A DNA stretch of 36,968 nucleotides, taken from positions 1-36,968 of the IMG/VR virus record IMGVR_UViG_3300023174_007129; one strand, written 5' to 3'. The stretch comes from a virus. A program made the translations under genes and the position numbers. The notes under the pieces were generated by a model. The model saw only the letters and a list, made by a program, of their open reading frames with translations. It did not search any database and had not been told where the DNA came from. Of the stretch, positions 21,090 through 36,054 are shown in pieces (the first letter of the stretch is position 1; each line of letters begins with the position of its first letter).

Positions 21090-21099
21090 ATTTTTATGA
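20932..21099 (+). pseudogene. thyX: 5' fragment of thyX (first 52 codons), truncated by endonuclease insertion
   Basis: ATG at 20932 opens a 55-codon frame whose first 52 residues align without gaps to the N-terminus of the intact ThyX at 21887 (by my count 40 of 52 identical, about 65% at DNA level). Homology stops at GGACAT (21087), inside the segment that continues into the FEKSSLQF motif of the intact copy. After that come three unrelated codons and a stop, then the leader of the GIY-YIG endonuclease. The difference is too large for a recent tandem duplication, so the fragment is probably the remnant of an earlier resident thyX. Confidence 0.85.
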
Positions 21100-21110
21100 T
21101 AACATAGCAA

Positions 21111-21141
21111 CTCATATTCATTAAGATACTTAATGATGAGG
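21111..21141 (+). promoter_or_regulatory. hairpin hiding the SD of the GIY-YIG endonuclease gene
   Basis: TCATTAAG (21118-21125) pairs with CTTAATGA (21129-21136) around a 3-base loop. CTCA (21111-21114) pairs with TGAG (21137-21140) across a 3-base bulge. The SD GATGAGG (21135-21141) is therefore mostly inside the stem, nine bases before the ATG. T4 I-TevI is controlled in this way. Confidence 0.6.
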
Positions 21142-21150
21142 TAAAATGCT

Positions 21151-21906
21151 ATGTGGTATGTCTATTCATATTCTGATCCATGCAGTGGACGTGTTTTCTA
21201 TATTGGAAAAGGCAAAGACAATCGATGCAAAGCACATCTTTATCGTGCAAAAACTTGGGTCAATAGAGGTAAACCTGCAAAATGTGGTTCACACAACTTG
21301 CATCTTCTTAGATTGATTTCAAAAATTTGGGATAGAGGTGAACAGCCTGTTGTAGAGATTATCAAACAATTTGATAATGAGCAAAATGCTTATTCGTATG
21401 AAATAGAGATGATTAAGTACCACAAAGATACAATATGCAATTTAACTGATGGTGGTGAGGGTTTCAAGGGACGCGCCGAAACCCGTCTAAAAATGAGTGA
21501 AAAGCGCAAAGAGTGGCTTAAGACTGATGAAGGTCAAGCTTGGCGTAAAATGATGTCTGAGGCTAGAAAGGGTTCTAAGAACCCGCACTTTGGAAAGAAA
21601 GAAGAAGAAGAGCACAAGCGGTCCAGAATGAAAAATATGCTTGAAAAAGAACGGTGGAACAAGGGACGTGCCGGTGACCCACGATGTAAAGGTCACCCAA
21701 AAGGTGAATTACCGCATAATGCTCGACCATGTCGCGCTGTCAATGAGTTATCAGGTGAAGCTATTGAAGAATCATCAATCGGTAGACTTGCCAAAAGACT
21801 GGTCAACAATCAATATCAAATTTCTCACTCTTCTATTTCTAGAATCATAGATCGTGACAAAACCATAAATGGGTGGAGAATAAGCTATGTCATTCCAAGA
21901 CAATAA
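21151..21906 (+). CDS. free-standing GIY-YIG homing endonuclease (with NUMOD3 and NUMOD1-like DNA-binding parts)
   Basis: A 251-residue protein. The N-terminus has the GIY-YIG nuclease fold in the WYVYSYSD...VFYIGKGKDNRCKAHL form (residues 2-31), with the Arg after YIGKGKD and a later catalytic Glu in YSYEIEMIKYH (about 82-92). A NUMOD3-like basic region follows, with GSKNPHFGKK at about 146-155. The C-terminal region CRAVNELSGEAIEESSIGRL looks like a NUMOD1 helix-turn-helix. Codons are AT-richer than the neighbours, as is common for mobile genes. The end of the gene overlaps the start of intact thyX by 20 bases. It likely cuts thyX of related phages at the point where the upstream fragment breaks. 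Confidence 0.85.
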   Translation: MWYVYSYSDPCSGRVFYIGKGKDNRCKAHLYRAKTWVNRGKPAKCGSHNLHLLRLISKIWDRGEQPVVEIIKQFDNEQNAYSYEIEMIKYHKDTICNLTDGGEGFKGRAETRLKMSEKRKEWLKTDEGQAWRKMMSEARKGSKNPHFGKKEEEEHKRSRMKNMLEKERWNKGRAGDPRCKGHPKGELPHNARPCRAVNELSGEAIEESSIGRLAKRLVNNQYQISHSSISRIIDRDKTINGWRISYVIPRQ

Positions 21907-22555
21907 GGTTCAGCTTACTGGGTGGTATGGATCAGATGAAACACATGCGTTGTCCGCGTGGACGTCAACATCACGAGAAATTACCAACGAGAAGCGCAAC
22001 AGAATCCCACAACTTCTGAAAATGCTCGCAGATCAGGGACATCATACAGTTTTTGAAAAGTCGAGTCTACAATTCTTAGTAACGGTGGATACGAGTGTTC
22101 ATATCCAGCTCCTCAAGCATCGCATTGGTGTTTCTATCAACGCTGAAAGCGCGCGTTATAAAGAGCTGAAGGACGACAAATACTACCTCCCGAAGGATTG
22201 GTCTCTTGAAGAGCAAACACGTTATATCGCATTCATGGAAGATGCTCTCATGCGATACCATGAGACTCTTGACAGACTTGTGAAAAGTGGAATGGATCGT
22301 AAGCGTGCTAAAGAGACGGCGAGGTTCTACTTGCCCTACGGTAATCAGATCACGATGGATGTAATGTTCAACTGGCGTAGCTTTAATCACTTTCTTGGTT
22401 TAAGATTAAAACCAGACGCACAGCGAGAGATCTGCTGGCTGGCTGAAGAGATGCTCCAGCTTGTTCGTGACATCCCGGGAGATCCGTTCAAGCACACGCT
22501 AGAAGCTTTTGGTTACGTTGTAAAACCTAAAGAAATATTCTACCATAGTGTGTGA
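21887..22555 (+). CDS. thyX: flavin-dependent thymidylate synthase
   Basis: A 222-residue ThyX, making dTMP from dUMP with FAD, NADPH and methylene-tetrahydrofolate. Conserved parts are SAWTSTSR (about 24-31), HTVFEKSSLQFLVTVDTSV (about 53-71), the signature LLKHRIGVSINAESARY (about 75-91, family RHRxxSxNxxSxRY with Lys for the first Arg) and FNWRSFNHFLGLRL (C-terminal helix). Length is typical. The ATG lies within the endonuclease's last codons. Its stop overlaps the GTG start of the glycosylase gene (GTGTGA). No ThyA or DHFR gene is seen. A second, divergent ThyX-like protein is encoded at 26062. Confidence 0.95.
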   Translation: MSFQDNKVQLTGWYGSDETHALSAWTSTSREITNEKRNRIPQLLKMLADQGHHTVFEKSSLQFLVTVDTSVHIQLLKHRIGVSINAESARYKELKDDKYYLPKDWSLEEQTRYIAFMEDALMRYHETLDRLVKSGMDRKRAKETARFYLPYGNQITMDVMFNWRSFNHFLGLRLKPDAQREICWLAEEMLQLVRDIPGDPFKHTLEAFGYVVKPKEIFYHSV

Positions 22556-22965
22556 ACGCACCTAAGTCACCCTATAACCTGATCCAAGAGACAGTGCAGT
22601 ACGATCCATGGCGTGTCCTGATCGTCTGCATTTTCTGTAATCTAACAAAGCGTGTCGTCGCAGAGCCCTACATGTGGCAGTTCTTCGATCGATGGCCCAC
22701 AGCAGATGCAGCATCACATGCGGATCCCGCAGAGATCCGTGACATGATCTCCATTCTTGGTCTTGCAGATCGCAGAAGTAAGACGCTGGTCAAGCTCTCA
22801 CAGTCGTACGTGCGGTGGGACGGGGTTGATGTAAAATCTCTACCAGGCGTGGGTGAGTACGCTGCTGCAGCTTACGACATCTTCTGCCTGCACCGCTGGG
22901 CACAGATTCCAGAACCCAAGGACGGTGCATTGAAGAACTACTGGAAGTGGATTAACAAAGTATAG
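22552..22965 (+). CDS. MBD4-like HhH-GPD DNA glycosylase (mismatch T/U glycosylase)
   Basis: A 137-residue protein closely following the catalytic domain of MBD4. It shows PYNLIQETVQYDPWRVLIVC (residues 7-26), a 'FFDRWPTADA' helix, LGLADRRSKTLVKLS, the helix-hairpin-helix SLPGVGEYAAAAYDIFC (about 95-111) and the final PKDGALKNYWKW. Asp124 in PKD aligns with the catalytic Asp of MBD4 (Asp560 in PEDHKLNKY). The family removes T or U opposite G. It starts with GTG inside the thyX stop, so it is coupled to thyX. Vertebrate MBD4 has a methyl-CpG domain; none is here. Sitting beside a Nei/Fpg gene, it forms a small base-excision set. Confidence 0.8.
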   Translation: MNAPKSPYNLIQETVQYDPWRVLIVCIFCNLTKRVVAEPYMWQFFDRWPTADAASHADPAEIRDMISILGLADRRSKTLVKLSQSYVRWDGVDVKSLPGVGEYAAAAYDIFCLHRWAQIPEPKDGALKNYWKWINKV

Positions 22966-22968
22966 CAA

Positions 22969-23003
22969 AACCTTCAGGCATAGATACCTATTGCTAGGAG
23001 GTT
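22969..23003 (+). promoter_or_regulatory. hairpin hiding the SD of the second GIY-YIG gene
   Basis: AACCTTC (22969-22975) pairs with GGAGGTT (22997-23003, one G-U). Inside, GCATAG (22978-22983) pairs with CTATTGC (22988-22994, one bulged base) around a 4-base loop. The complete SD GGAGG is in the 3' arm, four bases from the ATG at 23006. The same logic is seen at the other endonuclease gene. Confidence 0.6.
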
Positions 23004-23005
23004 AA

Positions 23006-23725
23006 ATGCACAGAATATACATGACAACCAACCTTATCAATGGAAAAAAGTATGTTGGTAGATGTTCCAAAGATGAGAGATGGGAGTCGGGTTATCTTGG
23101 ATCAGGTGTTCTTTTAAAGCAAGCAATTAGAAAATACGGTTTCGAGAATTTTGAGAGAACTATTTTAGAAGAACTTCCTAATAGTGCCTCTCTGAGAGAG
23201 GCTATTGATCTTGAAAAAGAATGGCTTATAAAACTTGATTGCAAAAACTCTCCTGATTTTTATAACATGAGTAACGATACAGGCGGAATGGGCGCAGGTG
23301 ATAAGCATTCTGATGAAACGAAAGAAAAGATTAGCGATAGTATGAAGGTATTTTACGGCGATGCTGGTCTTCCTCCCGAATGGAGAGAAAATGTCGCCAA
23401 TGCAGTAAAAGGTAGAGTTCCTTGGAATAAAGGACTCACATCCAAAGATTTTAAAGGCGACTTTTATAGCAAAAGAAGAAAGCCTGTAAGGCTCACAGAA
23501 GATGATTATCCTGCGATTAAAAAGTTATATGAGGCAGGAATGTCAGCATCAAAAATAGGAAAGATGTGGAATGTAGGACACAAAGCAATCTTAGGAATGA
23601 TTCGACGAGGAGGACCGCCTGAGGCTCCCGTGAAAGGAAGAAAAATGAATAATGATCAAAAACAAAAAATATCTGAATCAGTCAAAAACTTTTATAATCA
23701 CAAAAAGGAAAACGACGTTGCCTGA
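23006..23725 (+). CDS. free-standing GIY-YIG homing endonuclease (Seg / I-TevI type)
   Basis: A 239-residue protein with the GIY-YIG domain in its Seg-like form: IYMTTNLINGKKYVGRC (residues 4-20), YLGSG, LKQAIRKYGFENF and a catalytic-type Glu in AIDLEKEWL (about 66-74). The basic C-terminal half holds two NUMOD3-like motifs (DETKEKISDSMK; NNDQKQKISESVK), a GRVPWNKGLT element and a resolvase-like helix-turn-helix (LYEAGMSASKIGKMWNVG). It differs from the other GIY-YIG gene, so the two are independent insertions. It is AT-richer than its neighbours and splits the two glycosylase genes. Its last eight bases overlap the TTG start of the Nei gene. Confidence 0.88.
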   Translation: MHRIYMTTNLINGKKYVGRCSKDERWESGYLGSGVLLKQAIRKYGFENFERTILEELPNSASLREAIDLEKEWLIKLDCKNSPDFYNMSNDTGGMGAGDKHSDETKEKISDSMKVFYGDAGLPPEWRENVANAVKGRVPWNKGLTSKDFKGDFYSKRRKPVRLTEDDYPAIKKLYEAGMSASKIGKMWNVGHKAILGMIRRGGPPEAPVKGRKMNNDQKQKISESVKNFYNHKKENDVA

Positions 23726-24527
23726 GGGCCCAGAAGTCAAGATTGTATCTGAGTCGCTTGGCCGTGCGTTGCAGGGTCGGGCAATCGTCGGCATCAACTA
23801 TTTGGGTGGTCGATACACGAGGCACGGACCTCCTGAGGGTCATGCAGAAATTTCATCGGAGCTGCCCCAGAATGTGTCTGTCACATCTTGTAAGGGCAAG
23901 TTTATATACCTAACACTCCAGAATAATTGGGTAATCTGGAACACTCTGGGTATGACGGGTGGCTGGTCAAAGACACAGCACAAACACAGCAGAGCGCAGT
24001 TTCTCCTGGACGATGGGTCATCTGTGTTCTTCAACGATCCACGTAACTTTGGAACTCTGAAGTACGTCCACGGGATGGAAGCTCTCCAGGCGAAGCTTGA
24101 TGAGCTCGGACCTGACATGCTTGCAGATGATGTTCCAGATGATGTGTTCGTCGCAAGAATGCGCAAGCGAAACAAGCGTGTGATCACAGAAAACCTGATG
24201 GATCAGAAAGTGATCTGTGGCGTGGGAAACTACCTTAAATCTGAGAGTCTCTACTTTGCAGGCATCTCACCCATGCGTCATGTTAACACCATGACGGACG
24301 AGGAGCTCGCACGTCTCAATCAGACGATCAAGGCAGTTATTCGCGCATCCTACCAGACGGGTGGCGCAACGATCTACACGTTTCAGGGATTTGACGGCGA
24401 GAAAGGACAATACAGTCGCCGCTTCGCTGTTTATAATCAAGACAAGGATCCTAAAGGGTGGGATGTGAAATCCTTCACTTCACCCGAGGGCCGCACAACA
24501 TTCTGGGTTCCAGAGGAGCAAACATGA
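23718..24527 (+). CDS. Nei/Fpg-family DNA glycosylase with a zincless finger
   Basis: The start is TTG at 23718, which gives the family N-terminus M-P-E-G-P-E, where Pro2 is the catalytic nucleophile and Glu3 the helper. An in-frame upstream ATG at 23652 would bury that proline. AAGGAAA about eight bases upstream is the SD. Other catalytic parts are Lys61 in KGKFIYL and GVGNYLKSESLYFAGISP (about 168-185, helix-two-turn-helix). The C-terminal GRTTFWVPEEQ contains the substrate Arg but has no Cys; the last ~35 residues lack all four zinc ligands. This matches zincless members such as NEIL1 and mimivirus Nei. Length 269 is typical. It removes oxidised bases and nicks the strand. Confidence 0.88.
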   Translation: MPEGPEVKIVSESLGRALQGRAIVGINYLGGRYTRHGPPEGHAEISSELPQNVSVTSCKGKFIYLTLQNNWVIWNTLGMTGGWSKTQHKHSRAQFLLDDGSSVFFNDPRNFGTLKYVHGMEALQAKLDELGPDMLADDVPDDVFVARMRKRNKRVITENLMDQKVICGVGNYLKSESLYFAGISPMRHVNTMTDEELARLNQTIKAVIRASYQTGGATIYTFQGFDGEKGQYSRRFAVYNQDKDPKGWDVKSFTSPEGRTTFWVPEEQT

Positions 24528-24751
24528 GTTACAGGCTATCAGATGAGACAATTGGGCAGATCGCAAAGCTTCTACAGGTTGCGATCATCACAGGCACTGA
24601 CATCGTTGACAACCTTCGCACAATCCGGCTGCGCGTAGGCGATGGTGAGCAGCTTGAGCCCACACCAGACTACATTGAGAACTTCGAGCGCAATCTCAAC
24701 AGGATGATCGAGACTCTCGCAGCGCAGACGAACTCCGACCAGAGTGAGTGA
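24524..24751 (+). CDS. small conserved phage protein, unknown function
   Basis: A 75-residue protein starting in an ATGA overlap with the Nei stop; an earlier in-frame ATG at 24458 lies deep inside nei and is not preferred. The sequence is helical: DETIGQIAKLLQVAIITGTDIVDNLRTIRL, an acidic turn GDGEQLEPTPDYIENFE and a final helix. Similar short proteins with TGTDIVDxLR occur in large marine myophages as hypothetical proteins. No function can be read from it. It is coupled to the genes on either side. Confidence 0.7.
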   Translation: MSYRLSDETIGQIAKLLQVAIITGTDIVDNLRTIRLRVGDGEQLEPTPDYIENFERNLNRMIETLAAQTNSDQSE

Positions 24752-24753
24752 CA

Positions 24754-25128
24754 ATGGATAAGCTCGACCAGATGTTTCAGATGCGCAAAGAGTTCATGGC
24801 AGCGCTGTCTGCGCATGTGCCTAATGCGTATCCACACCAGCCGATTGATCTCAGCAGCAAGCAGTCTCAGCAGCACTTCAGAGATCTTGCACTGCGCGGT
24901 GTCGAGGAGATCTTTGAAGCACTTCAGCACCTGAAGAATACGAAGCCACATCGCGTGACTGACATCACAGATCCTGTCGATGTTGAAGCCTTCAAGGAAG
25001 AGATGGTCGACGCTTTTAACTTTTTCTTCACGCTTCTAATCTTGATGGACGTTGAAGCTGAAGACCTCTACGAGGTCTTCAAGAAGAAAGACCAAATTAT
25101 CCACGATCGCATTAAGAACAGGTACTGA
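24754..25128 (+). CDS. MazG/dimeric-dUTPase-like NTP pyrophosphatase
   Basis: A 124-residue all-alpha protein. The metal-binding signature of the all-alpha NTP pyrophosphatase superfamily is split in two: an RGVEEIFEAL helix (E-x-x-E type, about 48-57) and FKEEMVDAFNFFF (E-x-x-D, about 85-97). The end, EAEDLYEVFKKKDQI, is the usual third helix. The ATG at 24754 is preferred; a GTG at 24748 overlapping the upstream stop (GTGA) is an alternative. It hydrolyses a non-canonical or excess NTP/dNTP to the NMP, possibly dUTP to dUMP, which would feed ThyX. It is paralogous to the N-terminal half of the next gene. Confidence 0.72.
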   Translation: MDKLDQMFQMRKEFMAALSAHVPNAYPHQPIDLSSKQSQQHFRDLALRGVEEIFEALQHLKNTKPHRVTDITDPVDVEAFKEEMVDAFNFFFTLLILMDVEAEDLYEVFKKKDQIIHDRIKNRY

Positions 25129-26078
25129 TGGACATCAAGAAGATTCTCCAGCGCCAGAAGGACTTCTCAGATCTTTTCTACGACTCATCTAGCTTTAATG
25201 ATGAGAAGCGAGAGGAGATGACGAAGTCCTTCGCTTTGGCACTTCACGCTGAAGTTGCAGATCTAGTTAGCTCGATCAACTTCAAGGACCATCACGCGAA
25301 CCGGAAGACACCGGATCGTGAGAAGATCCTGTACGAGTCAATCGATGTGATGCGTTACCTCCTGGCAATCATGAATGTCTGGGGCTATGAAGCTGATGAA
25401 GTCGTGACAGCGTTCAATGACAAAGACACCTTCCTACACATGCGTCATCGGGTAGAGAACGCTAAGTGGGACGGTAGACCCGTCCTGATTGTCGATGTTG
25501 ATGATGTCATCGCGCACTTCAGGAAGGACTACTTTGAGTGGCTTCGCGACAGTCACAACATTGATATTCCTCTGGACTATCCAGAGTACTATGCATCTTC
25601 TCCACTGAAGGAGCGCGGGATCAATCCGGAGGCGTCGTTCAAGGACTTCATCAGCGAGCGGCGTCTTCGTAAAATTGAGCCTATCGAAGGAGTCCGTGCC
25701 GTCCTAAAAGCAGCCCAAGACATGGGCTTTTGGGTTCAGCTTCTGACAGCACGACCCGACCAGAACCTGATCTGTCTCTACGACACTTACCACTGGATCT
25801 CTGAGATGGGCGTACCATTTGACGGCCTCGCCTTCAGCGGCGAGAAGTACAGGTGGATCGTACAGAGTCAGTTTTACGGACACGTCGCAGCATGCGTCGA
25901 TGACTCACCAAAGCACGCTGCAGAGTACGCAAATCACGGTTTACTTGTACTTTCGCCTGCGCTGTCTTATAATGCATCATTGGCTGGCGTCGATGGCGTC
26001 ACTCGATACGAAGATCCAGATCAACTACTTCTACAACTAAATCGAATCAAAGAGGAAATCAATGCCACAAGACACTAA
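25128..26078 (+). CDS. fusion of MazG-like pyrophosphatase and HAD-type 5'(3')-deoxyribonucleotidase
   Basis: A 316-residue two-domain protein. Residues 1-115 repeat the all-alpha NTP pyrophosphatase pattern (LHAEVADLVSSI, YESIDVMRYLLAI, EADEVVTAFNDKD). Residues 118-316 are a HAD hydrolase. Motif I is LIVDVDDVIAHF (about 120-131, with the nucleophile Asp and the acid Asp two on). The Thr motif is LLTARPD (about 204-210) and the last acidic motif CVDDSPKHA (about 256-264). This is the layout of 5'(3')-nucleotidases (NT5C family), which dephosphorylate dNMPs. Together the protein could take a dNTP to the nucleoside in two steps. The ATG overlaps the previous stop (TGATG). The fusion is unusual. 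Confidence 0.78.
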   Translation: MDIKKILQRQKDFSDLFYDSSSFNDEKREEMTKSFALALHAEVADLVSSINFKDHHANRKTPDREKILYESIDVMRYLLAIMNVWGYEADEVVTAFNDKDTFLHMRHRVENAKWDGRPVLIVDVDDVIAHFRKDYFEWLRDSHNIDIPLDYPEYYASSPLKERGINPEASFKDFISERRLRKIEPIEGVRAVLKAAQDMGFWVQLLTARPDQNLICLYDTYHWISEMGVPFDGLAFSGEKYRWIVQSQFYGHVAACVDDSPKHAAEYANHGLLVLSPALSYNASLAGVDGVTRYEDPDQLLLQLNRIKEEINATRH

Positions 26079-27012
26079 TCTCAAGCCTATCACTCTTCCT
26101 ATGGCAATTCGTTTCGGCGAGGAACCAACTACTGAGTTCGTCAACAGTCTTGATGCGCTCAAGCTCGAGCTGGTCGATGCACCTGATCCCAAGTCGATCC
26201 GCCAGGCAGTCTACTGCTTCGTCAAGTCCACCTGGGCTGACCAGCATGTTCCTTACAAGGACGCAACTGAGGCTGAGCTTAGTAAGACCCTTGAGGACGT
26301 CTTTGCAGGTCGCGCTCTTCCAGCAGCAATGGAGCTGATCGGTCTCACCTTCCTCGTCGGTGGAATTGACACGCAGACTGTGACCCACCTCATCCGTCAC
26401 CGTGCAGGCTCCTTTGCAGCACAGTGCACCGGTGACCGTTGGCTCTCACATGAGCGCAGCCTTGTCCCTGGTTCCATCCAGAACAGCCTTGAGTTCTACG
26501 CCCGTTGGCAGGCACATGTCCAGGAGGCAAAGCAGCTCTACACGGACATGGTTGACTCCAAGCAGATCAGTCTAATGGATGCACGCCACGTCCTGCCCAA
26601 GTGCCTTGAGACCTTCTACTACATGCGCATGAACATCCGTGACGCGTTTGGCTTCATCAAGCAACGCCAGGACAAGCAGATCCAGCCTGAGGAGGACAAC
26701 ATGCTTGCCGCTCTCATGGCACGCGAGATCCTTCGTGTCTTCCCTGAGGCGCATGTTGCGATCAACCTTCGCGAGCCTGCTTGGCACTACATCAAGACGT
26801 TCCGGAATGGCACTGGTACGAACCTCTACTGGCCCGATGAGGACAGTGAGAAGCACCTCACCTACCATCCAGACGACACGATCTACCAGGCAACCCGTGA
26901 TGACATGAACGGTACAGGTGGCGGCGTCCCTCACTTCCGGAAGCTCTGGAACGAGACTCTTGCTGAGATTGACACGATCGTCACCAACTACAAGAACACA
27001 CGAGGCATTTAA
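26062..27012 (+). CDS. divergent ThyX-superfamily protein (ThyX paralogue)
   Basis: A 316-residue protein overlapping the previous gene by 17 bases; SD AGAGGAAA. The ThyX signature is recognisable but altered: HLIRHRAGSF at about 107-117, followed by AAQCTGDRW where ThyX has NExSxRY. The C-terminal core also fits ThyX: MDARHVLPKCLETFYYMRMNIRDAFGFIKQR (helices in which ThyX has N-R contacts to FAD/dUMP) and AREILRVFPEA. It is about 90 residues longer than the thyX product, with an extra tail after residue 240. Because a canonical ThyX is present, this one may act on a different pyrimidine nucleotide. That is an inference; it could also be a thymidylate synthase variant. Confidence 0.75.
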   Translation: MPQDTNLKPITLPMAIRFGEEPTTEFVNSLDALKLELVDAPDPKSIRQAVYCFVKSTWADQHVPYKDATEAELSKTLEDVFAGRALPAAMELIGLTFLVGGIDTQTVTHLIRHRAGSFAAQCTGDRWLSHERSLVPGSIQNSLEFYARWQAHVQEAKQLYTDMVDSKQISLMDARHVLPKCLETFYYMRMNIRDAFGFIKQRQDKQIQPEEDNMLAALMAREILRVFPEAHVAINLREPAWHYIKTFRNGTGTNLYWPDEDSEKHLTYHPDDTIYQATRDDMNGTGGGVPHFRKLWNETLAEIDTIVTNYKNTRGI

Positions 27013-27015
27013 TAT

Positions 27016-27055
27016 TTAGTTGGGCACTTTATATTAAAGAGAAGAGCCCAACTGA
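27016..27055 (+). promoter_or_regulatory. two-part hairpin with a -10-like box directly before a fibre gene
   Basis: AGTTGGGC (27018-27025) pairs with GCCCAACT (27046-27053). Inside, CTTTA (27027-27031) pairs with TAAAG (27035-27039). The box TATATT (27030-27035) lies in the inner hairpin, and the ATG at 27056 follows three bases after the outer stem. The only SD-like sequence (GAGAAGAG) lies in the interior loop and edge of the 3' arm. Confidence 0.5.
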
Positions 27056-27874
27056 ATGCCTGCAGTTAGAGTAGTAGACGAACACCTCCTGGCCCCGGTA
27101 CTTGTGTATTCGGGATCAGGAGGTGTTTTTGATAATGAGCTTGTTTTAAGCACAACGACAGGGCTCACAAGGACAATTCAGAGTGGCAGACTAGATCTAG
27201 GGATTGATTTTACACACATCCCAAGCCTAGAAGGAGCAGACTTTACAGGTCCTGCGACGTTCAATGGCGGTCTAACCGGTAGTTTGCAATCACTCCCGAG
27301 TGGTGACCCATACATCATTGGGAAAGGTGTCCTTGCAGTCACCACATCCTCGATTGGTCAGCTTGAAATTCACGCTGACATTGACAGCATAACAGCACAG
27401 GTTGCAAAAAAGTATGTCAATGAGATTGTCTTTAATGAGCGTATTCTTGTTCCAGAAGCGTCAAATGGAATACACTTTAACTTGGCCTCGACACCGACAA
27501 ATGTCAGTGAAGTTCAACTCTGGCTCAACGGCCAGCTTCTGACATACGGTGAAGACTATACTGTTAATGATAGACTGATCACCATTCTGCCTAGTCCGCT
27601 TAGACAAGACGACAAGCTCATCGCTTCATATTCACGCGCGCTCGTGATGAAACAGTATAAGTTTGGTGAGCGTCTAACACTGCAACCCGATGGCACTGTA
27701 ACATTGCAGAACGCTCCGACGAGCAATAATGATGTTATGATCTTCCTCAACGGGCAGCTTCTTTTACGAGGCGTCATGCTGGGTGACAATGACTACCACA
27801 TCAACAGCCAGATCATCACGTTCAATAACTACGTAGATTCGACTGACGTTTTGCTTGCTAGTTATTCATATTAA
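27056..27874 (+). CDS. fibre/baseplate-periphery protein with two FLNGQ modules
   Basis: A 272-residue, beta-rich protein. The C-terminal half has two related modules: VQLWLNGQLLTYGEDYTVN...DDKLIASYS (about 160-195) and VMIFLNGQLLLRG...DYHINSQIITF...DVLLASYSY (about 225-272). The same module occurs once at the C-terminus of the protein encoded at 28315. Such 'LNGQ...DY...I.F...D' units are common in phage tail fibres and appendages, where they form short beta domains. The N-terminus (LAPVLVYSGSGGVFD) may attach to a baseplate or another fibre. A short -10-like box and hairpin precede it. Confidence 0.65.
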   Translation: MPAVRVVDEHLLAPVLVYSGSGGVFDNELVLSTTTGLTRTIQSGRLDLGIDFTHIPSLEGADFTGPATFNGGLTGSLQSLPSGDPYIIGKGVLAVTTSSIGQLEIHADIDSITAQVAKKYVNEIVFNERILVPEASNGIHFNLASTPTNVSEVQLWLNGQLLTYGEDYTVNDRLITILPSPLRQDDKLIASYSRALVMKQYKFGERLTLQPDGTVTLQNAPTSNNDVMIFLNGQLLLRGVMLGDNDYHINSQIITFNNYVDSTDVLLASYSY

Positions 27875-27888
27875 TAATTGTCTTGTTG

Positions 27889-27905
27889 TCACACAGACTG
27901 TGTGA
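27889..27905 (+). repeat. 7-bp inverted repeat between fibre gene and DUF5659 gene
   Basis: TCACACA (27889-27895), three-base loop, TGTGTGA (27899-27905). It is a perfect short hairpin 15 bases after the fibre stop, followed by TATTTA rather than a U-run. Its role may be in transcript end or stability; no stronger claim is possible. Confidence 0.4.
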
Positions 27906-27934
27906 TATTTAGAGACAGGATAAAAGAGCGCACA

Positions 27935-28159
27935 ATGAAGATCTACAAGACGTCTGATCTGTCACTCGCAGCATTTCTAAAACTGCGTGGCATGAAACTT
28001 ATATCTGCATCTAAGACGGGAGCAGGAAAGTTCGAATTTGAATTTGAAGATACGGGATGCGCAGATTCACTTGCAATTGATTTTGCAAATAGCGAATTTT
28101 CCGCATACGATGCTAATCTTCGAGCACTAAAAAAGGCTGTAAATTCTCGCACAAAATAA
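27935..28159 (+). CDS. DUF5659-like small protein
   Basis: A 74-residue protein beginning MKIYKTSDLSLAAFLKLRG, then KFEFEFEDTG and a final LRALKKAV helix. This matches the DUF5659 pattern (Y-K-T-x-D-L-x-L-A-A-x-L, then a FxFxD strand) often found in phages and viruses; its function is unknown. The ATG at 27935 is chosen over an upstream in-frame GTG (27878) because the domain starts there. The SD is weak (AGGATAAAAG, 10-19 bases upstream). It stands alone between two fibre genes. Confidence 0.72.
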   Translation: MKIYKTSDLSLAAFLKLRGMKLISASKTGAGKFEFEFEDTGCADSLAIDFANSEFSAYDANLRALKKAVNSRTK

Positions 28160-28314
28160 ATTAAAATTATTTTGAATAAAAGAGCCTGTCAAGCATATAT
28201 AGACATGTCGTCGCGGCGCAAGCCGCACTTCGTTAGAGATGATGTTAGGGGACGCGTAATGAAGACGTGGTGTCCTCAGCGAGCGTCAAAGTATAAACTC
28301 TAATGGAGTAAATC
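28160..28314 (+). promoter_or_regulatory. structured leader of the large fibre gene
   Basis: The 155-base gap contains an AT-rich start and a hairpin GCGGC (28213-28217) / GCCGC (28222-28226). A distant inverted pair GACGC / GCGTC lies downstream. A TATAAA box (28292-28297) is followed by GGAG, ten bases before the ATG. A transcript from that box would begin almost at the SD. I see no gene in this stretch. Confidence 0.45.
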
Positions 28315-30279: not shown

Positions 30280-30325
30280 TCGCTTGCGGTTTAGGCCGCA
30301 CGCTTCTTAGCTGAGGCAAAAATTT

Positions 30326-30357
30326 GGGCCGCACACGTGAGTGTGCGGCCCATTTTT
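30326..30357 (+). terminator. strong rho-independent terminator after the fibre gene
   Basis: GGGCCGCACAC (30326-30336) pairs perfectly with GTGTGCGGCCC (30341-30351); the loop GTGA is a GNRA-type tetraloop. ATTTTTG follows. An A-run upstream means it may also act on the opposite strand. Confidence 0.92.
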
Positions 30358-30386
30358 GTGATATGTATAGAACAGGAGACATCATT

Positions 30387-30632
30387 ATGGCAAACATTCT
30401 AATTGACATTCTTGCATCATACGTTGCTGGAGGTCTAATCTTTGCAGGCTATAACATTCTCGAGATCAGCACTCTGCAGCGTCAAAATGATCTCACACGT
30501 GATAAGAACTTGAAGAATACGATCACTGCGCAGGCAAAGCTTCACTTTGATGACGTGCGTGGCGCATGGAAGTGGCCCTACCTGCTAGGCAAGACAGCAG
30601 TTGCTGCTATCAAGTGGGTCAAGACGATCTAA
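30387..30632 (+). CDS. small membrane-anchored protein, unknown
   Basis: An 81-residue protein. ATG 30387 follows SD AGGAGA at a good distance; an in-frame start at 30324 would lie inside the terminator. Residues 3-26 (ILIDILASYVAGGLIFAGYNIL) are hydrophobic and suggest one membrane helix, with a charged helix afterwards and a final basic segment (KTAVAAIKWVKTI). It is preceded by a TATAGA box. I do not recognise the family. Confidence 0.6.
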   Translation: MANILIDILASYVAGGLIFAGYNILEISTLQRQNDLTRDKNLKNTITAQAKLHFDDVRGAWKWPYLLGKTAVAAIKWVKTI

Positions 30633-30643
30633 AGTGAACAGCT

Positions 30644-31372
30644 GTGGATACCTCAAAAAAGCTCAAAAAGCTAACCTACAAGCTGCAGTACCTTCGTGTT
30701 GAGCTCGAAGAAGTTGAAGAAGCGCATGCGCGTGCCAAGTGGGAGCTTAGCAACGCGATTTTTGAGATATTTGCGAGATGTGGTAAAAAGATTCAGTCGC
30801 ACGAGAGCGGATCTGTTGTGGATCCGCCTCTTCCGTCGCAAGAAGACGAAATCCCTGCCATCAACCTCGAGGCAGATCTAAAGAAGATCGTCAGAAAAAT
30901 TGCCCTTAAGACACATCCAGACAGGACGGCAAACCTCACAGACGATGTAAAAGCTTACTACGAAAGCCTGTATCGAGATGTGATGTCAGCTGCCAAAGAT
31001 GCCGACGAAGGGCGGATCATTGAGATCGCGCTTGAGCTGGACATCGATATTGAGCTTGACGAAACTCGTCACACAAGACCACTTGAGGAACTTACAACAC
31101 GCCTTGAGGGAAAGATTGACAAGATTAAGCGCACGCCTGAGATTATCTGGCTTAATCACCACGACCAAGATGAGATTAGGTGCAATATGCTTGTCATGGC
31201 AGCAAGTAACATGGGCCTCGATCTTAGTCCACAAATTGCTCTTGATATTGTCAATTGGGTAAAAGCAGGTTGCCCTAATGGCACGCAATACACAAGAGTG
31301 TCACCTGCACGTCCCGATAGGGTTTGGGAAAAGCGGCGACCAGGAACTCGACCCGAGCGTATTTCACGTTAA
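30644..31372 (+). CDS. J-domain-like protein
   Basis: A 242-residue protein with GTG start. Residues about 1-45 are coiled-coil-like. At about 78-125 lies a J-domain core: LKKIVRKIALKTHPDRTANL (the HPD tripeptide, His91-Pro92-Asp93, is intact) followed by YESLYRDVMSAAKDADE. The J domain would stimulate an Hsp70/DnaK ATPase. It ends with a basic motif RRPGTRPERISR, and a very similar motif (RKPGTRPEKLS) occurs near the end of the next protein. No classic DnaJ zinc or C-terminal domains are present. It may recruit host DnaK for virion assembly or replication; inference only. Confidence 0.72.
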   Translation: MDTSKKLKKLTYKLQYLRVELEEVEEAHARAKWELSNAIFEIFARCGKKIQSHESGSVVDPPLPSQEDEIPAINLEADLKKIVRKIALKTHPDRTANLTDDVKAYYESLYRDVMSAAKDADEGRIIEIALELDIDIELDETRHTRPLEELTTRLEGKIDKIKRTPEIIWLNHHDQDEIRCNMLVMAASNMGLDLSPQIALDIVNWVKAGCPNGTQYTRVSPARPDRVWEKRRPGTRPERISR

Positions 31373-31394
31373 AGTTTAATCGTTGTGTTTGCAT

Positions 31395-31400
31395 TATAAA
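31395..31400 (+). promoter_or_regulatory. -10-like box TATAAA eight bases before an ATG with no SD
   Basis: TATAAA ends eight bases before the ATG at 31409 and no SD is visible. This resembles the leaderless arrangement at 9803, 20135 and 36025, though the spacing is two bases longer. Confidence 0.35.
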
Positions 31401-31408
31401 TTAAGCGC

Positions 31409-31945
31409 ATGGACGCAAAAAATAAAGACACAGTTGCCCTGATCGATATCCAGAATATTGTTAGTGGCTTTATCTCAGCACAAGAAACTGACAAGTCTGA
31501 GATCTTGAAGTCAATTGATAGAGACTCCATCATTCATGACGTCGCTAGTGCAATCCAGAAAAAAATCGTTTCGATGGTCAAGGCATGCAGGAAATCGTGT
31601 ATTGGCAAATCTGTCGAGGAACGCGAGATTATTATGTGGACGACGCTAGACAAGATCGAAGAGATTATTGGTCAAGATGTCACGTCAACACGAGATGCTG
31701 TGCTTTATGGCAAAGGGAAGCATGAGGCAATTGAGTCATCAATGTCAGCATTAAATGCGGCATGGGACACCGGTATTGGTGATTTGCAACGCATTGACAC
31801 GGTTGCTGACATGATTAAGCTGGGTGTAGAGCCTATCAATGGGCGCAATCGTAAACCCGGCACACGTCCTGAGAAGCTATCAGTTGTTCGAAAAGCTCAA
31901 GAAGAAGTTGAGAAAAATCAAACTGAATTTGATGGGAAAGCTTAA
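31409..31945 (+). CDS. unknown helical protein with a PGTRPE motif
   Basis: A 178-residue mostly helical protein with charged patches. I recognise no enzyme motif. A CRKSC pair occurs near residues 60-64. Near residues 150-160 it contains RKPGTRPEKLS, almost the same as the C-terminal motif of the preceding J-domain protein; the codons differ, so the peptides rather than the DNA are kept similar. A Lys/Glu-rich helix follows. Only two bases separate it from the adhesin gene, so the genes are probably co-transcribed. Confidence 0.6.
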   Translation: MDAKNKDTVALIDIQNIVSGFISAQETDKSEILKSIDRDSIIHDVASAIQKKIVSMVKACRKSCIGKSVEEREIIMWTTLDKIEEIIGQDVTSTRDAVLYGKGKHEAIESSMSALNAAWDTGIGDLQRIDTVADMIKLGVEPINGRNRKPGTRPEKLSVVRKAQEEVEKNQTEFDGKA

Positions 31946-31947
31946 AC

Positions 31948-33756
31948 ATGCCTTGTGAAGTCAATAGAACAGTTAATTTTGGAACGACGAAGTCGGGCCT
32001 TCGTCACGTCGGCTATTGTCTTCTAAACACAAAAGGCGCGATTGTGCATGCACGCACAGAAAGAGGCGTGCATGAAGTGGGTGAAGGCACAGGCATCTAT
32101 GCAGCAATGGTCTGTTTTCCAGACCAGTTCCGCGGCACGGTGCTATGGGACACTGGACAAGCGCGCCCGTCCTATGCAGCTGAAGAGTATAATTACTACG
32201 ACAACAATGATGTCATGCTCGAGCAGATGAAGTATGTCTTCAGTCAGCTCAGCTTCCTTAGAGGGTTGCAGGCAGGGCGCTGGGCACTCAAGAAAGAAAC
32301 AGCAGAAATGACTTTCTATGATGAGACAGGCGAGAATATGCTTGTTTCTTATGCAATGATGGACAGCAATGGAAAGCCATCACTTGAAGAAGTTTTTGAT
32401 CGCGTTGTCAACGAAATAAATGCACCTGAGTATCCACCGCCCATTACGGATCCTCCTACAGATAATCCACCCAATTATGAACTGTCGCCCTCAGACACAA
32501 ATCCAAAAGAAGGAGATGTAGTTAATTTTTCAGTTGCAACGAATCGTCTGGTCAATAAGCTCTATTGGACATTGGAGCCCGTTGCAAGCGCGGCTTCAGC
32601 AGGTGACTTTAGGCTTCTATCTGCCGTTAATAATTCAGGAATTGTTCCTCTTGTTAGTGGGACAGGCACATTTACACTTGCACTCGCTGATGACTTGCTG
32701 ACCGAAGGTGACGAGACATTTATAGTCAATCTTCGTCTAGGAGGCCCAGATGGCGATATCGTGGCAACAAGCACTATTACAGTTAAGGATACATCTACAA
32801 CACCCCCAGCTACACCACAAAGAAATCAAGTTATCCATATTTTACCTGTTGATGGAGAATCTGATCTCGATCAACTTGGCCCGGTTCCGAGCACTTTAAG
32901 TGACTTTAATATTGTACAAGTTTCAGTTGGGAGCAACTTTGCTCTTGCACTTGATGACACGGGTAGAGTTCATGCGTGGGGCACCGAAGACATATATGGG
33001 TTAACAGACGTGCCAGATGAGGCATTATCTAATGTGTCTAAGATCACAGCAGGTCTCAGCTTTGCTTATGTACTCAAGGCTGACGGTTCCGTGTTCGGCT
33101 GGGGCGATCCTGCCAACAATAGATTCGACAATGAAGACTTGACTGGAATAATTGACATCTTCTCTTCGTGGTATGAAACTCTCTTTATTGATAACAATGG
33201 AAAAGTCCACCGTCGCGGAAGCTCGTCAGGTGTCACCTATAACATAAGCACATGGAATCAGGGCGTAACACAGGTTGCAGTCGGGCGCTACAACGCAATC
33301 GCGCTCCAGGGTGGTGTCATTAAGGTTACAGGACTTTCAAACCACAATGCACTTGTCGTGCCACAAGAGGCACAGGTCTCTCCGGTGTCCATCCACGCGG
33401 CAGGAGGAACAACATTCTATGCCATTCAGGCAGACGGTACCATCATCGGATGGGGCAAGGCCGACTCGCAACAAATTAGCAAACTGCATGATATTGCAAC
33501 ATCAGGCATGTACGAAGGTGTGACTTCAACCTGGAATACAACTGCCAACGGCGGTTCATTTATTAAAGTGACAGATCCCAATAAGCGCTTGGGACACTTC
33601 TTTGCAACATCTGGATACATGACTGGGATGATCGACGCTGCAGGACATGTCAATTATTGGGGCTTAATTCCCTATGACTTTGTCACTCCGAGCTCTGGTG
33701 TTTTGGCAGCTGCAGGATGCGACAATAGCATAGTTGTAGTTGTCAAAGGTAGCTAA
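31948..33756 (+). CDS. adhesin-like virion protein: Calx-beta domain plus seven RCC1-like blades
   Basis: A 602-residue modular protein. The N-terminal ~165 residues begin VNRTVNFGTTKSGL and are probably an attachment domain. A Pro-rich linker (about 165-178) leads to a Calx-beta domain (about 180-285; KEGDVVNFSVAT and LLTEGDETFIVNL with the acidic Ca-binding pattern). After a second linker comes a propeller (about 300-602) of RCC1/BNR-type units, each with a 'G..(F/Y)...L..DG.(V/I)..WG' pattern; seven can be counted. Such a protein would sit on the tail or head surface and bind a host glycan or protein. The propeller is an unusual receptor-binding fold in phage. Fibre genes are close by. Confidence 0.7.
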   Translation: MPCEVNRTVNFGTTKSGLRHVGYCLLNTKGAIVHARTERGVHEVGEGTGIYAAMVCFPDQFRGTVLWDTGQARPSYAAEEYNYYDNNDVMLEQMKYVFSQLSFLRGLQAGRWALKKETAEMTFYDETGENMLVSYAMMDSNGKPSLEEVFDRVVNEINAPEYPPPITDPPTDNPPNYELSPSDTNPKEGDVVNFSVATNRLVNKLYWTLEPVASAASAGDFRLLSAVNNSGIVPLVSGTGTFTLALADDLLTEGDETFIVNLRLGGPDGDIVATSTITVKDTSTTPPATPQRNQVIHILPVDGESDLDQLGPVPSTLSDFNIVQVSVGSNFALALDDTGRVHAWGTEDIYGLTDVPDEALSNVSKITAGLSFAYVLKADGSVFGWGDPANNRFDNEDLTGIIDIFSSWYETLFIDNNGKVHRRGSSSGVTYNISTWNQGVTQVAVGRYNAIALQGGVIKVTGLSNHNALVVPQEAQVSPVSIHAAGGTTFYAIQADGTIIGWGKADSQQISKLHDIATSGMYEGVTSTWNTTANGGSFIKVTDPNKRLGHFFATSGYMTGMIDAAGHVNYWGLIPYDFVTPSSGVLAAAGCDNSIVVVVKGS

Positions 33757-33761
33757 CTAAG

Positions 33762-34127
33762 GTGCCAAAAGCAAGATTCTCACCCATCAGGCATTTAACA
33801 CGTGGCTTCGGCGGGTCAGCATCGGCTGTCATTGTTAGAGCATTTCTATCTTTTGACGATACTATTGCAGAGATTAGAAAGAAATTAGGCGGTAGTTCAA
33901 GCAAGAACGAATTCATCTTTGATGATGAAGTCAATATCTATAAAATTTCTGCGATGTTGCAGTCAATCAATGAGATGCCTCTAAATAATACTGTCTACAA
34001 TAAAATGACAAAATTGATTGTGGAAAAGAAGATTAACATCGATGTTAATCTTCTAGATACAGCAACACGAAATAGCTCACCGTACAAGATAGTTATGGGT
34101 GAGTACAAAGTATTGAGAGGACAATGA
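33762..34127 (+). CDS. unknown protein
   Basis: A 121-residue protein with GTG start five bases after the adhesin stop. It begins PKARFSPIRHLTRGFGGSASAVIVRAFL and then is helical (FDDTIAEIRKKLGGSSS), ending with a beta-like IVMGEYKVLRGQ. I recognise no family. It overlaps the next gene's start by four bases (ATGA), so it is co-translated with it. Possibly a structural or assembly factor given the location; this is inferred. Confidence 0.6.
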   Translation: MPKARFSPIRHLTRGFGGSASAVIVRAFLSFDDTIAEIRKKLGGSSSKNEFIFDDEVNIYKISAMLQSINEMPLNNTVYNKMTKLIVEKKINIDVNLLDTATRNSSPYKIVMGEYKVLRGQ

Positions 34128-34639
34128 GCGACATTTCCCTTTATCTAGATCAGGATAACGAATTAAAGTTTAACGTCTCTATTGAAGGCTCTAAGCCTGG
34201 CACACCCAAGTATCGTCTTGTCTTTGAGACAAAAGATTTCTCGTATGCATTTAACGGTGTGCAGTCAACAACGGGTGAAGTTACTGTCGTTGTGCCAACA
34301 ATGAAGAATCTCATGAAAGAGGGAAACTACAGTGCACAGCTCGAAGTAATGATTGACGATCGGTACTTCACCCCGCTTCAATTCGATGCTAGCTTTGAAC
34401 AGTCAGTTCGTGTCGTCGCAGAGCACACGTCTAGGACAGCGCCCAAGAAGGTGGGCGTCACAGCGTCAATCGTCACTGCACAGCGGCCACAGCAGGCACC
34501 AATGGTTGAAAATACTGTGCAACGTCCGACCGCTCAGGCACCCAGAAAGCCTGCAACTAAGTCAGCAGCTATCGCTGAGGTTGATGGCAAGCCTATCACA
34601 GCCGACGACTTGCGCGAGTTAATCCGTAGAGGATTTTAG
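34124..34639 (+). CDS. conserved T4-like phage protein, beta-rich N-terminal domain
   Basis: A 171-residue protein. Residues 1-105 form a beta-rich domain (ISLYLDQDNELKFNVSIEG ... KYRLVFETKDFSYAFNG ... GNYSAQLEVMIDDRYFTPLQF). I associate this pattern with a conserved hypothetical protein of marine T4-like phages that some lists call a prohead core protein. Residues about 105-150 are a Pro/Gln/Ala-rich linker. The C-terminal helix reads GKPITADDLRELIRRGF. The start overlaps the previous stop. Function not settled. Confidence 0.6.
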   Translation: MSDISLYLDQDNELKFNVSIEGSKPGTPKYRLVFETKDFSYAFNGVQSTTGEVTVVVPTMKNLMKEGNYSAQLEVMIDDRYFTPLQFDASFEQSVRVVAEHTSRTAPKKVGVTASIVTAQRPQQAPMVENTVQRPTAQAPRKPATKSAAIAEVDGKPITADDLRELIRRGF

Positions 34640-34659
34640 ACTTCGTTGTGAAAAATTAC

Positions 34660-34687
34660 CCTCACTTCAACTATAATAGAAGTGAGG
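34660..34687 (+). promoter_or_regulatory. hairpin with TATAAT in its loop and the SD in its 3' arm
   Basis: CCTCACTTC (34660-34668) pairs perfectly with GAAGTGAGG (34679-34687). The 10-base loop contains TATAAT (34672-34677). The SD GAGG (34684-34687) is the end of the 3' arm, seven bases before the ATG at 34695. A transcript begun from this box would start near 34684 and lack the 5' arm, freeing the SD; a long read-through transcript would hide it. Confidence 0.65.
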
Positions 34688-34694
34688 TAAAAAC

Positions 34695-35138
34695 ATGAAT
34701 AACGTCTACATTGCAAGTGGTTGGTTTTCTCCAGAGTGGCTCCAGGAAGTTGAGGACATCAAGGGTGTCCTCGAGGATCTCAAGCTCGACTACTTCTCTC
34801 CCAAGGACTATGCGATCGCTGAGGCGACCGCCAGCAATGACACTCAGAAGCAGATCTTCGACGGCAACGTCGAGCATCTTGAAAAGTGTGACTGGATGAT
34901 CTGCAACACCCGTAACAAGGACATGGGTTCGATCTGGGAGGCAGGTTACTTCTACGCACGCAACAAGCCTATTGTCTACTTCTGTGCAGGCCTTCCACCA
35001 GGTGCCAAGTTCAATCTCATGCTCTCAGCAAGCGGTGTCGCTGTCTGTACTTCACTCGATGACCTCCGTGTGTATCTTGCACACTGCAAGCGAGAAGGCA
35101 AGCTGATCTCACGCAGCTACAGCGGTTTGATCGAGTAG
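34695..35138 (+). CDS. nucleoside 2-deoxyribosyltransferase-like protein
   Basis: A 147-residue protein of the NDT fold. VYIASGWF opens the family's beta-alpha unit. EKCDWMICNT, then DMGSIWEAGYFYARNKPIVYF (Asp76, Glu82 as the likely nucleophile, Gly84) and FNLMLSASGVAV are the characteristic motifs. The family moves a deoxyribose between bases or hydrolyses the N-glycosidic bond; in phages related proteins occur in nucleotide salvage and base-modification clusters. Length is typical (about 150). The gene is preceded by a promoter-in-hairpin element. The exact substrate cannot be told. Confidence 0.8.
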   Translation: MNNVYIASGWFSPEWLQEVEDIKGVLEDLKLDYFSPKDYAIAEATASNDTQKQIFDGNVEHLEKCDWMICNTRNKDMGSIWEAGYFYARNKPIVYFCAGLPPGAKFNLMLSASGVAVCTSLDDLRVYLAHCKREGKLISRSYSGLIE

Positions 35139-35147
35139 CAAGGATAT

Positions 35148-35187
35148 TGTGCGCTCTTAGAGGATAGTTATCTGCTAGGAGCGCACA
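35148..35187 (+). promoter_or_regulatory. 13-bp hairpin enclosing the SD and first base of the start codon
   Basis: TGTGCGCTCTTAG (35148-35160) pairs with CTAGGAGCGCACA (35175-35187) with a single G-U. The SD AGGAG is in the 3' arm and the last A is the first base of the ATG. The 14-base loop holds GATAGT (35163-35168), similar to the TATAGT box before uvsX. Stem length is far above chance. Confidence 0.75.
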
Positions 35188-35963
35188 TGCGTATGAATAG
35201 ATTAGCCCTTCGTAGGATGGTCCTCAAAGAGATGCATTATCTCATGGAAGATGAGGACATGCCAGAGATTGATGCAGAAGTTATTGATGATGAAGACGAA
35301 GAAGATGAAGACATGCACAAAGATCGTGTTGCTTCATTTGAGAAGGGCTATGAGTTTGGTCAAGATGACGCAGACGAAGATGTTCCAGAGGAAGACTACG
35401 ACACTGACGTAGATGAAGAGGGCAACTTCGACTACGAGGACTCGAACGTCTATGAAGAGACCGGAATGATTAAGTCAAATCTCTTCATGATGTCTAAGAA
35501 GTCGCTTGAGCTCCATGATGAAATCGGTGATCGTGATGATCTTCCTGAGTGGGTCCAAGAGAAGATCGCAGTCGCCTCCTACATGATTGACACGGTCCAC
35601 GACTACCTCATGTATGAGATGGAGAAAGATAACCTCCACGAGAAGAAGGGCGGTCGCTCCAAGACACGCAAGTACAAGGGTAAGGAGTACCGTGCCACAC
35701 CTTCAATGGTAAACGCAGTCAAGAAGGGCGCGTCCTACAAGCAGCTCGCAAATCTCGCTAAGTGGGCTGACGAGCCTGCTGCAGTCGTTCAAGCTGCAAA
35801 GATTGTTGCGAAAGGTGCTCCGATGTCACGTGACGACGAGAGTGATCTCGATGAGAACGACAGGTGGGAACCACTCCATCAATCAACTGGCATCATGTTC
35901 TTCGAGGACGAAGAGGGCGTTGACTATCCAACCCCTAAATCAAAGGGCAAGAAGCGCGGTTGA
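35187..35963 (+). CDS. acidic conserved phage protein, possibly virion-associated
   Basis: A 258-residue protein. The N-terminus is basic/hydrophobic (RLALRRMVLKEMHYLM). Residues about 21-92 are extremely acidic (long Asp/Glu runs). At about 100-150 lies SNLFMMSKKSLELHDEIG and DDLPEWVQEKIAVASYMIDTV, a helical domain I know from conserved structural-type proteins of T4-like phages. A basic linker (KKGGRSKTRKYKGKEY) and a helical C-terminus end in KSKGKKRG. The two oppositely charged regions suit binding to capsid or DNA. The start is hidden in a strong hairpin. No enzymatic motif. Confidence 0.6.
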   Translation: MRMNRLALRRMVLKEMHYLMEDEDMPEIDAEVIDDEDEEDEDMHKDRVASFEKGYEFGQDDADEDVPEEDYDTDVDEEGNFDYEDSNVYEETGMIKSNLFMMSKKSLELHDEIGDRDDLPEWVQEKIAVASYMIDTVHDYLMYEMEKDNLHEKKGGRSKTRKYKGKEYRATPSMVNAVKKGASYKQLANLAKWADEPAAVVQAAKIVAKGAPMSRDDESDLDENDRWEPLHQSTGIMFFEDEEGVDYPTPKSKGKKRG

Positions 35964-35975
35964 GGAAGTTAGATA

Positions 35976-35991
35976 ACCAGCGGTCGCTGGT
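35976..35991 (+). repeat. inverted repeat before the epimerase promoter
   Basis: ACCAGC (35976-35981), GGTC loop, GCTGGT (35986-35991): a tight GC-rich hairpin 12 bases after the stop at 35963, not followed by a clear U-run. It may stabilise the mRNA 3' end or be a weak terminator. Confidence 0.4.
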
Positions 35992-36002
35992 GTAAAATAG
36001 AG

Positions 36003-36054
36003 ACCTCGGTGCTATAATGAGTGTATGAAGATACTCATTACTGGTCACCGAGGT
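36003..36054 (+). promoter_or_regulatory. extended -10 promoter and nested hairpin around the epimerase start codon
   Basis: TG-C-TATAAT (36010-36018) ends six bases before the ATG at 36025, so the mRNA should be leaderless. The same bases form a nested structure: ACCTCGGTG (36003-36011) with CACCGAGGT (36046-36054), and inside it TAATGAGT (36015-36022) with ACTCATTA (36033-36040). The start codon lies in the apical loop. No SD is present. Confidence 0.6.

Follow-up and report, generated by a model that had tools for sequence, protein, structure and literature searches.

Six genes in the viral DNA analysed here, an IMG/VR virus record of 36,968 bases (IMGVR_UViG_3300023174_007129, in full length referred to as the window), start within or directly behind a hairpin that holds a promoter-like box, and such promoter-in-mask units probably gate translation to RNA begun at the gene's own promoter, with two promoter classes in use and with masks placed mainly where the class changes. 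As proposed, each masked gene would carry its own promoter within an inverted repeat spanning its translation start. RNA reading through from an upstream promoter would contain both arms and fold, which would pair the Shine-Dalgarno (SD) sequence, or the AUG of a leaderless gene, and leave the gene silent, whereas a transcript initiated from the box, in loop or spacer, would lack the 5' arm, so that the start would be accessible and the gene translated. The masked gene would be uncoupled from its same-strand neighbours, and masks with the late-like box GATANTTA and masks with sigma-70-like boxes would keep temporal classes apart in both directions. Promoter activity, RNA start points, silencing on read-through RNA and timing are what we infer here from sequence.

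When almost all genes of a phage share one strand, something must keep one temporal class from expressing its neighbours, and all called genes of the window lie on the plus strand. The gene content is distantly T4-like (UvsX, a T4-type single-strand binding protein, a DnaB-type helicase, a DNA-polymerase-like protein, ribonucleotide reductase and a head maturation protease), and a nucleotide search of a phage collection with the window returned no matching phage record. Close relatives were taken as IMG/VR contigs picked by protein, 11 of them read whole or nearly whole, together with pieces of two more.

Hairpins and boxes at six gene starts

All six hairpins reported in the initial annotation are present, and each holds a promoter-like box. 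Those of five genes are as follows, while the sixth, at 36025, is described with the leaderless genes.

21111..21141, + strand: SD-masking hairpin of gene 21151; arms 21111-21125 (CTCAT..TCATTAAG) and 21129-21141 (CTTAATGATGAGG), GAGG in the 3' arm
21125..21132, + strand: late-like box GATACTTA (motif GATANTTA) in the loop and top of the 21151 stem
22969..23003, + strand: SD-masking hairpin of gene 23006; AACCTTCAGGCATAG (22969-22983) and CTATTGCTAGGAGGTT (22988-23003) with small bulges, AGGAGG in the 3' arm
22983..22990, + strand: late-like box GATACCTA in the loop of the 23006 hairpin
27014..27057, + strand: hairpin adjoining the start codon of 27056; core GTTGGGC (27019-27025) and GCCCAAC (27046-27052), ending 3 nucleotides (nt) before the ATG
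27030..27035, + strand: sigma-70-like -10 box TATATT in the loop of the 27056 hairpin; TATACT, TATAGT and TATAAT in relatives
34660..34687, + strand: SD-masking hairpin of gene 34695; CCTCACTTC (34660-34668) and GAAGTGAGG (34679-34687), perfect over 9 base pairs
34672..34677, + strand: -10 box TATAAT in the loop of the 34695 hairpin, retained as TATAAT in G004 and G005
35148..35187, + strand: SD-masking hairpin of gene 35187; TGTGCGCTCTTAG (35148-35160) and CTAGGAGCGCACA (35175-35187), all positions paired, one as G-U
35163..35170, + strand: late-like box GATAGTTA in the loop of the 35187 hairpin; GATAAATA in G006, TATATTTA in G011

The SD lies in the 3' arm at 21151, 23006, 34695 and 35187, exactly as annotated, and the two hairpins said to hold or adjoin a start codon do so as well, that of 27056 adjoining it and that of 36025 carrying the ATG in its terminal loop. 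At 36025 it is a leaderless start codon that is hidden, rather than an SD. The -10-like boxes annotated at 27030, 34672, 35163 and 36013 all exist, although the one at 35163 is late-like; the boxes at 21125 and 22983 had been overlooked. Of the six genes, only 21151, 23006 and 35187 have late-like boxes, and sigma-70-like ones are found at 27056, 34695 and 36025.

Opening cost, the predicted cost of unfolding the start region (-15 to +5), amounted to 11.6-21.4 kcal/mol for the six genes on read-through RNA and to 0.8-6.0 kcal/mol on RNA from the predicted own start, the latter values resting on an assumed RNA start 6-7 nt past the box. For reference, 559 starts in four relatives gave a median of 7.2, a 90th percentile of 12.8 and a 95th percentile of 15.4. 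Read-through and own RNA differed at 21151 (11.6 vs 1.0 kcal/mol), 23006 (15.2 vs 4.0), 34695 (13.3 vs 1.7) and 35187 (21.2 vs 6.0). The weakest stems of the six are those of 21151 and 23006, which reach 14 and 15.5 in contiguous-stem scoring.

Excess of masks over chance

Chance statistics covered the 413 starts with an intergenic stretch of 30 nt or more on 14 related contigs; across these contigs, 40 masked starts in 18 ortholog groups were found. Box-bearing stems in the SD zone with a score of at least 20 occurred 25 times, compared to 1.6 after dinucleotide shuffling (at most 5 in any of 30 shuffles), and at a score of at least 24 the count was 15 vs 0.13. A second control kept the boxes and both arms and exchanged 5' arms among same-class sites in 200 runs. 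Stems scoring at least 18 were present at 28 of 134 box sites as against about 2.6 after swapping, made up of late-like (13/42 vs 1.3) and sigma-70-like boxes (15/92 vs 1.3), with a swapped-arm maximum of 5 for either class.

These data bear on the reading that the layout arises by composition, the -10-like boxes being AT-rich loops and the stems random. Shuffles do often yield weak stems (score 13-14), but the strong stems exceed both shuffles and swapped arms many-fold, the 5' arms of orthologues pair preferentially with their own 3' arms, and Microcystis phage Mel-JY01, the best isolate match to tail sheath and UvsX, showed no enrichment under the identical SD-zone scan, which leaves chance scarcely credible.

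Rebuilt arms in relatives

Conservation of the arms was measured as own-versus-other pairing rather than by column pairs, since arms move by 1-2 nt relative to the box and are misaligned by MAFFT. In five ortholog groups the own 3' arm was a better partner of the 5' arm than the 3' arms of relatives, with the observed sum reached by 2 of 720 permutations in the 35187 group, 1 of 24 in each of the 34695 and 27056 groups, 4 of 120 in the 27935 group and 24 of 720 in the 36025 group. The stems of the 34695 group read CCTCACTTC/GAAGTGAGG in the window, AGCCTCC/GGAGGCT in G004, TTTAACCTCGTAG/CTACGAGGTTAAA in G005 and CTCAAAGA/TCTTTGAG in G007, each surrounding a TATAAT or TATCTT box, and arms of the 35187 group vary similarly (TGTGCGCTC, TTCAAGCCTCACCAAC, ATTGCTCGCCTCTG) around boxes GATAGTTA, GATAAATA and TATATTTA. 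The arms of the 27056 hairpin are rebuilt in G004, G007 and G010. In another phage, the relative L129 is 62% identical to the 21151 endonuclease and lies in the same arrangement of thyX fragment, endonuclease and thyX, and its stem TCACCT/AGGTGA is unlike the 21151 arms in sequence, yet still complementary. A lack of conserved or compensated arms in related genomes had been named beforehand as a possible refutation; this refutation did not come about, given the own-arm pairing in the five groups and the rebuilt counterpart of the 21151 hairpin in the distant relative L129. As orthologous arms differ and nevertheless remain complementary, the pairing itself appears to be maintained.

The same comparison speaks to the possibility that dimeric regulators bind the inverted repeats as DNA operators overlapping the promoters. 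Palindromes centred near the -10 box would fit operators, but orthologous arms are almost wholly different in sequence while still complementary, so that no common operator site is kept, and the 36025 repeat extends through codons and tracks synonymous change. We consider operators very unlikely and rejected this reading since orthologues have no arm sequence in common.

Two classes of promoter-like box

Among 8-mers, GATATTTA and GATAGTTA showed the strongest enrichment upstream of genes. The underlying GATANTTA motif is strand-specific (119 occurrences on the coding strand vs 12 on the opposite one), lies about 25-35 nt before start codons and precedes two tail sheath genes, genes for tail tubes and tail-fibre-like proteins and one head-tail adaptor gene. 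Because of this gene content the class was named late-like, and the box would represent a late-class promoter. Sigma-70-like boxes (-35/TATANT) precede genes for DNA polymerase, ribonucleotide reductase, DNA ligase, UvsX, a homing endonuclease and a PHROG 351 sigma factor.

This sigma factor, encoded at L043:8452-9186 and L078:4850-5593 behind a strong extended -10 promoter (GGTATAAT), is a candidate for the factor reading the GATANTTA box. A second, orthologous protein conserved in four contigs resembles the T4 gp55 family weakly, three of the contigs giving a weak PHROG 234 match (E 0.004-0.009); Pfam and PHROG scans of the candidate were without match, and a structure search with a model of modest confidence returned nearly exclusively sigma factors as top matches, each at E >= 0.04. 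A PHROG 12791 search gave no match.

Masks at class switches

Predicted promoters were ordered along each contig and class switches counted. A promoter of the other class preceded 26 of 34 masked starts compared to 42 of the 93 without a mask (Fisher p 0.002), and within 3 kilobases the figures were 19/24 and 14/35 (p 0.004). Once orthologues were merged, the difference became 8/11 vs 13/33 (p 0.08), which renders the class-switch result suggestive rather than settled. Masks occur in both class orders, late then sigma-70-like being the commonest (18 of 34). Since masks sit mostly at class changes between neighbours, we propose that they separate temporal classes both ways. Along the window, the order is late at 34124, sigma-70 at 34695, late at 35187 and sigma-70 at 36025, the last three all being masked, and G004 and G005 share this class order together with the same three masks. 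Further late-like boxes of the window are as follows.

34088..34095, + strand: late-like box GATAGTTA within gene 33762, start of the unit reading into 34695
27904..27911, + strand: late-like box GATATTTA before gene 27935; hairpin weak in the window and stronger in relatives

The initial annotation had seen in these hairpins the T4 scheme in wider use, in front of late and mobile genes. Pairing of the start, the promoter inside the hairpin and the wide use, now extending to 18 ortholog groups, were borne out, whereas the assignment of all masked genes as late was not: 27056, 34695 and 36025 have sigma-70-like boxes of the kind found before replication genes. A plain T4 scheme, with masked genes all late and silenced on early RNA, would account for the late-like boxes in the hairpins of 21151, 23006 and 35187 as well as in those of structural genes, the head-tail adaptor gene among them. 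However, the 27056, 34695 and 36025 groups retain TATANT-type boxes and not GATANTTA, and the commonest masked order is the one in which late precedes sigma-70-like. On balance, we regard the plain scheme as unlikely.

Leaderless genes with a putatively buried start codon

At 36025 the mask is built into promoter and coding sequence.

35990..35995, + strand: -35-like GTGTAA, 17 nt before the 36025 -10 box, conserved in all eight aligned sequences
36013..36018, + strand: -10 box TATAAT exactly 6 nt before the 36025 ATG (TATAAT-N6-ATG), leaderless class
36002..36055, + strand: start-codon mask of gene 36025, formed by promoter spacer 36002-36011 and codons 8-11 (36046-36055)

The inner part of this composite stem, AATGAGT/ACTCATT, reaches codons 3-5. 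In the window and its kin the -10 box lies one initiation distance before the ATG, with no SD in between. TATAAT-like boxes generally peak exactly 6 nt before the ATG (29 genes, with no other gap below 10 reaching more than 5), which on this sequence pattern is the mark of leaderless genes. The class also includes the head maturation protease gene 20135 (box 20123-20128). Furthermore, the small hairpin CCAGCGGTCGCTGG at 35977-35990, immediately 5' of the 36025 -35-like site, is conserved in several relatives; in G006 it reads CCCACGGTCGTGGG.

Pairing between spacer and codons that would bury the AUG was found in four leaderless groups (36025 and its kin, the G002_104125 group, G006_120061 and G006_161133), and 11 of 38 leaderless genes had a mask score of at least 24 compared to 1.2 with swapped arms, near-identical contigs being counted separately. 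Within the 36025 group, the partner of spacer ACCTCGGT is ACCGAGGT in the gene; G005 has the spacer ACCCCGGT along with a synonymous codon change from CGA to CGG, and G006 pairs its spacer CCACGGTGGC to GCCACCGTGG, likewise by means of synonymous change. One ortholog group contains both mask types, SD-type in G006, G007 and G011 and leaderless AUG-type in G001, G002 and G003, which suggests that masking itself is the feature retained. We give roughly even chances to the more far-reaching proposal that promoter-in-mask units act as two-way insulators, by which each of the alternating early-type and late genes would be translated only from a transcript of its own class, including a leaderless form in which -35/-10 spacer DNA and synonymous sites coevolve to bury the AUG.

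Weighing the proposal

Several observations, in addition to the weaker class-switch result upon merging orthologues, weigh against gating by nested masks. Gene starts came from a simple purpose-written caller, and temporal labels draw on box class and on the limited number of genes with an annotation, among which the baseplate-hub group has a structural product and yet a sigma-70-like box. The 23006 hairpin is identical in L105 and weaker in L104 (box GATATCTA), a strong mask is missing from the 34695 orthologues of G001-G003, G006, G011 and L010, and 27935 has no more than a weak hairpin in the window. Finally, four masks of relatives are followed by a T-run and are possible terminators.

The last point, together with strong hairpins whose 3' arms lie between -30 and -60 in the same intergenic regions, would agree with hairpins that mainly act as intrinsic terminators of the upstream gene or stabilise its 3' end and overlap the SD incidentally. 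Against this, no T-run follows the stem at any of the six window hairpins, the 36025 mask spans the start codon and enters the gene, and SD-zone stems exceed shuffles. As a general explanation, terminators thus appear quite improbable; they were rejected for the window hairpins for want of a T-run and retained for a few in relatives. T-runs follow some masks in G006, G007 and G005, upstream of L054:3033, L056:2073 (minus strand) and L067:4324, so that terminator, promoter and mask may share one hairpin there. If gating by promoter-in-mask units holds true, timing would become predictable from sequence alone in uncultured phages, and promoter and insulator would be combined in a compact design of about 35 bases.

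Genes behind the masks and their neighbours

21151..21906, + strand: GIY-YIG homing endonuclease gene (PHROG 314, Pfam LEM-3_GIY-YIG, NUMOD3), flanked by a thyX 5' fragment and a full thyX
23006..23725, + strand: homing endonuclease gene (PHROG 314, NUMOD3)
27056..27874, + strand: masked gene of no assigned function behind the second thyX
34695..35138, + strand: nucleoside deoxyribosyltransferase-like gene (Pfam PF05014, 6.5e-17)
35187..35963, + strand: masked gene of no assigned function for an acidic protein
36025..36966, + strand: NAD-dependent epimerase-like gene (Pfam PF01370, 9.7e-28), running off the window end

In the region 20932-22555, a thyX 5' fragment (55 amino acids, MPFQDNKVELIGWYGG...) is followed by endonuclease gene 21151 and a full thyX with diverged DNA, and it looks as if the endonuclease came with its own, diverged version of the target gene that it interrupted. 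Two separate thyX-family genes are present on this phage fragment, at 21887-22555 and 26062-27012. The end of the second endonuclease gene (23006-23730) overlaps the start of a gene for an fpg-type DNA glycosylase; the insertion lies right at this start, and the glycosylase gene seems to begin at TTG 23720. The ribonucleotide reductase open reading frame at 16646-20056 encodes 1136 amino acids with an HNH-type stretch at about residues 387-475, likely an intein. An Rfam scan of the window gave no family at gathering score.

Comparison with known systems

No description of genome-wide or two-way use of such masks was found in the open-licence literature. Leaderless genes with a -10 box about 6 nt before the ATG match the sharp 6-nt peak seen here, and differ in that four groups here also pair the spacer with the first codons. 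In IS10/Tn10 and IS50, fold-back inhibition protects the transposase from outside promoters, an inverted repeat hiding the start on outside transcripts only. These elements protect one mobile gene, whereas here ordinary phage genes on one strand would be separated.

The closest parallel is provided by T4. There, the long early e and I-TevI transcripts adopt a folded structure and are translated poorly, whereas RNAs started at late promoters within the 5' strand of this structure are translated (PMC3014915, PMC2988022). T4 e, soc, 49, I-TevI/II and segB as well as Aeh1 mobE resemble the present genes in having the start paired on read-through RNA, the promoter in the 5' half and an own RNA that lacks the 5' arm, and homing endonucleases use the scheme there, too (PMC2988022, PMC3014915). 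In our window, pairing of SD or AUG in long transcripts is predicted from sequence, and all six genes have the promoter box in the 5' half or loop of the hairpin. The T4 late promoter TATAAATA is not the type found, as three genes have GATANTTA-like and three sigma-70-like boxes; nested sigma-70-like promoters and masks in 18 ortholog groups set the present layout apart from T4 and Aeh1.

As a benchmark, T4 e and I-TevII scored high, while T4 late promoters as a set gave no excess over swapped arms in the same swap test (3/22 vs 1.6), and Mel-JY01, which lacks SD-zone enrichment, also has no leaderless peak. By comparison with these two outside genomes, the nested-mask layout looks particular to this phage group. 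The commonest masked order here, late then sigma-70-like, is the reverse of that of T4, and where T4 is known to gate a few genes in this way, the present phages apparently use it as a general layout, in both directions and for leaderless genes too.

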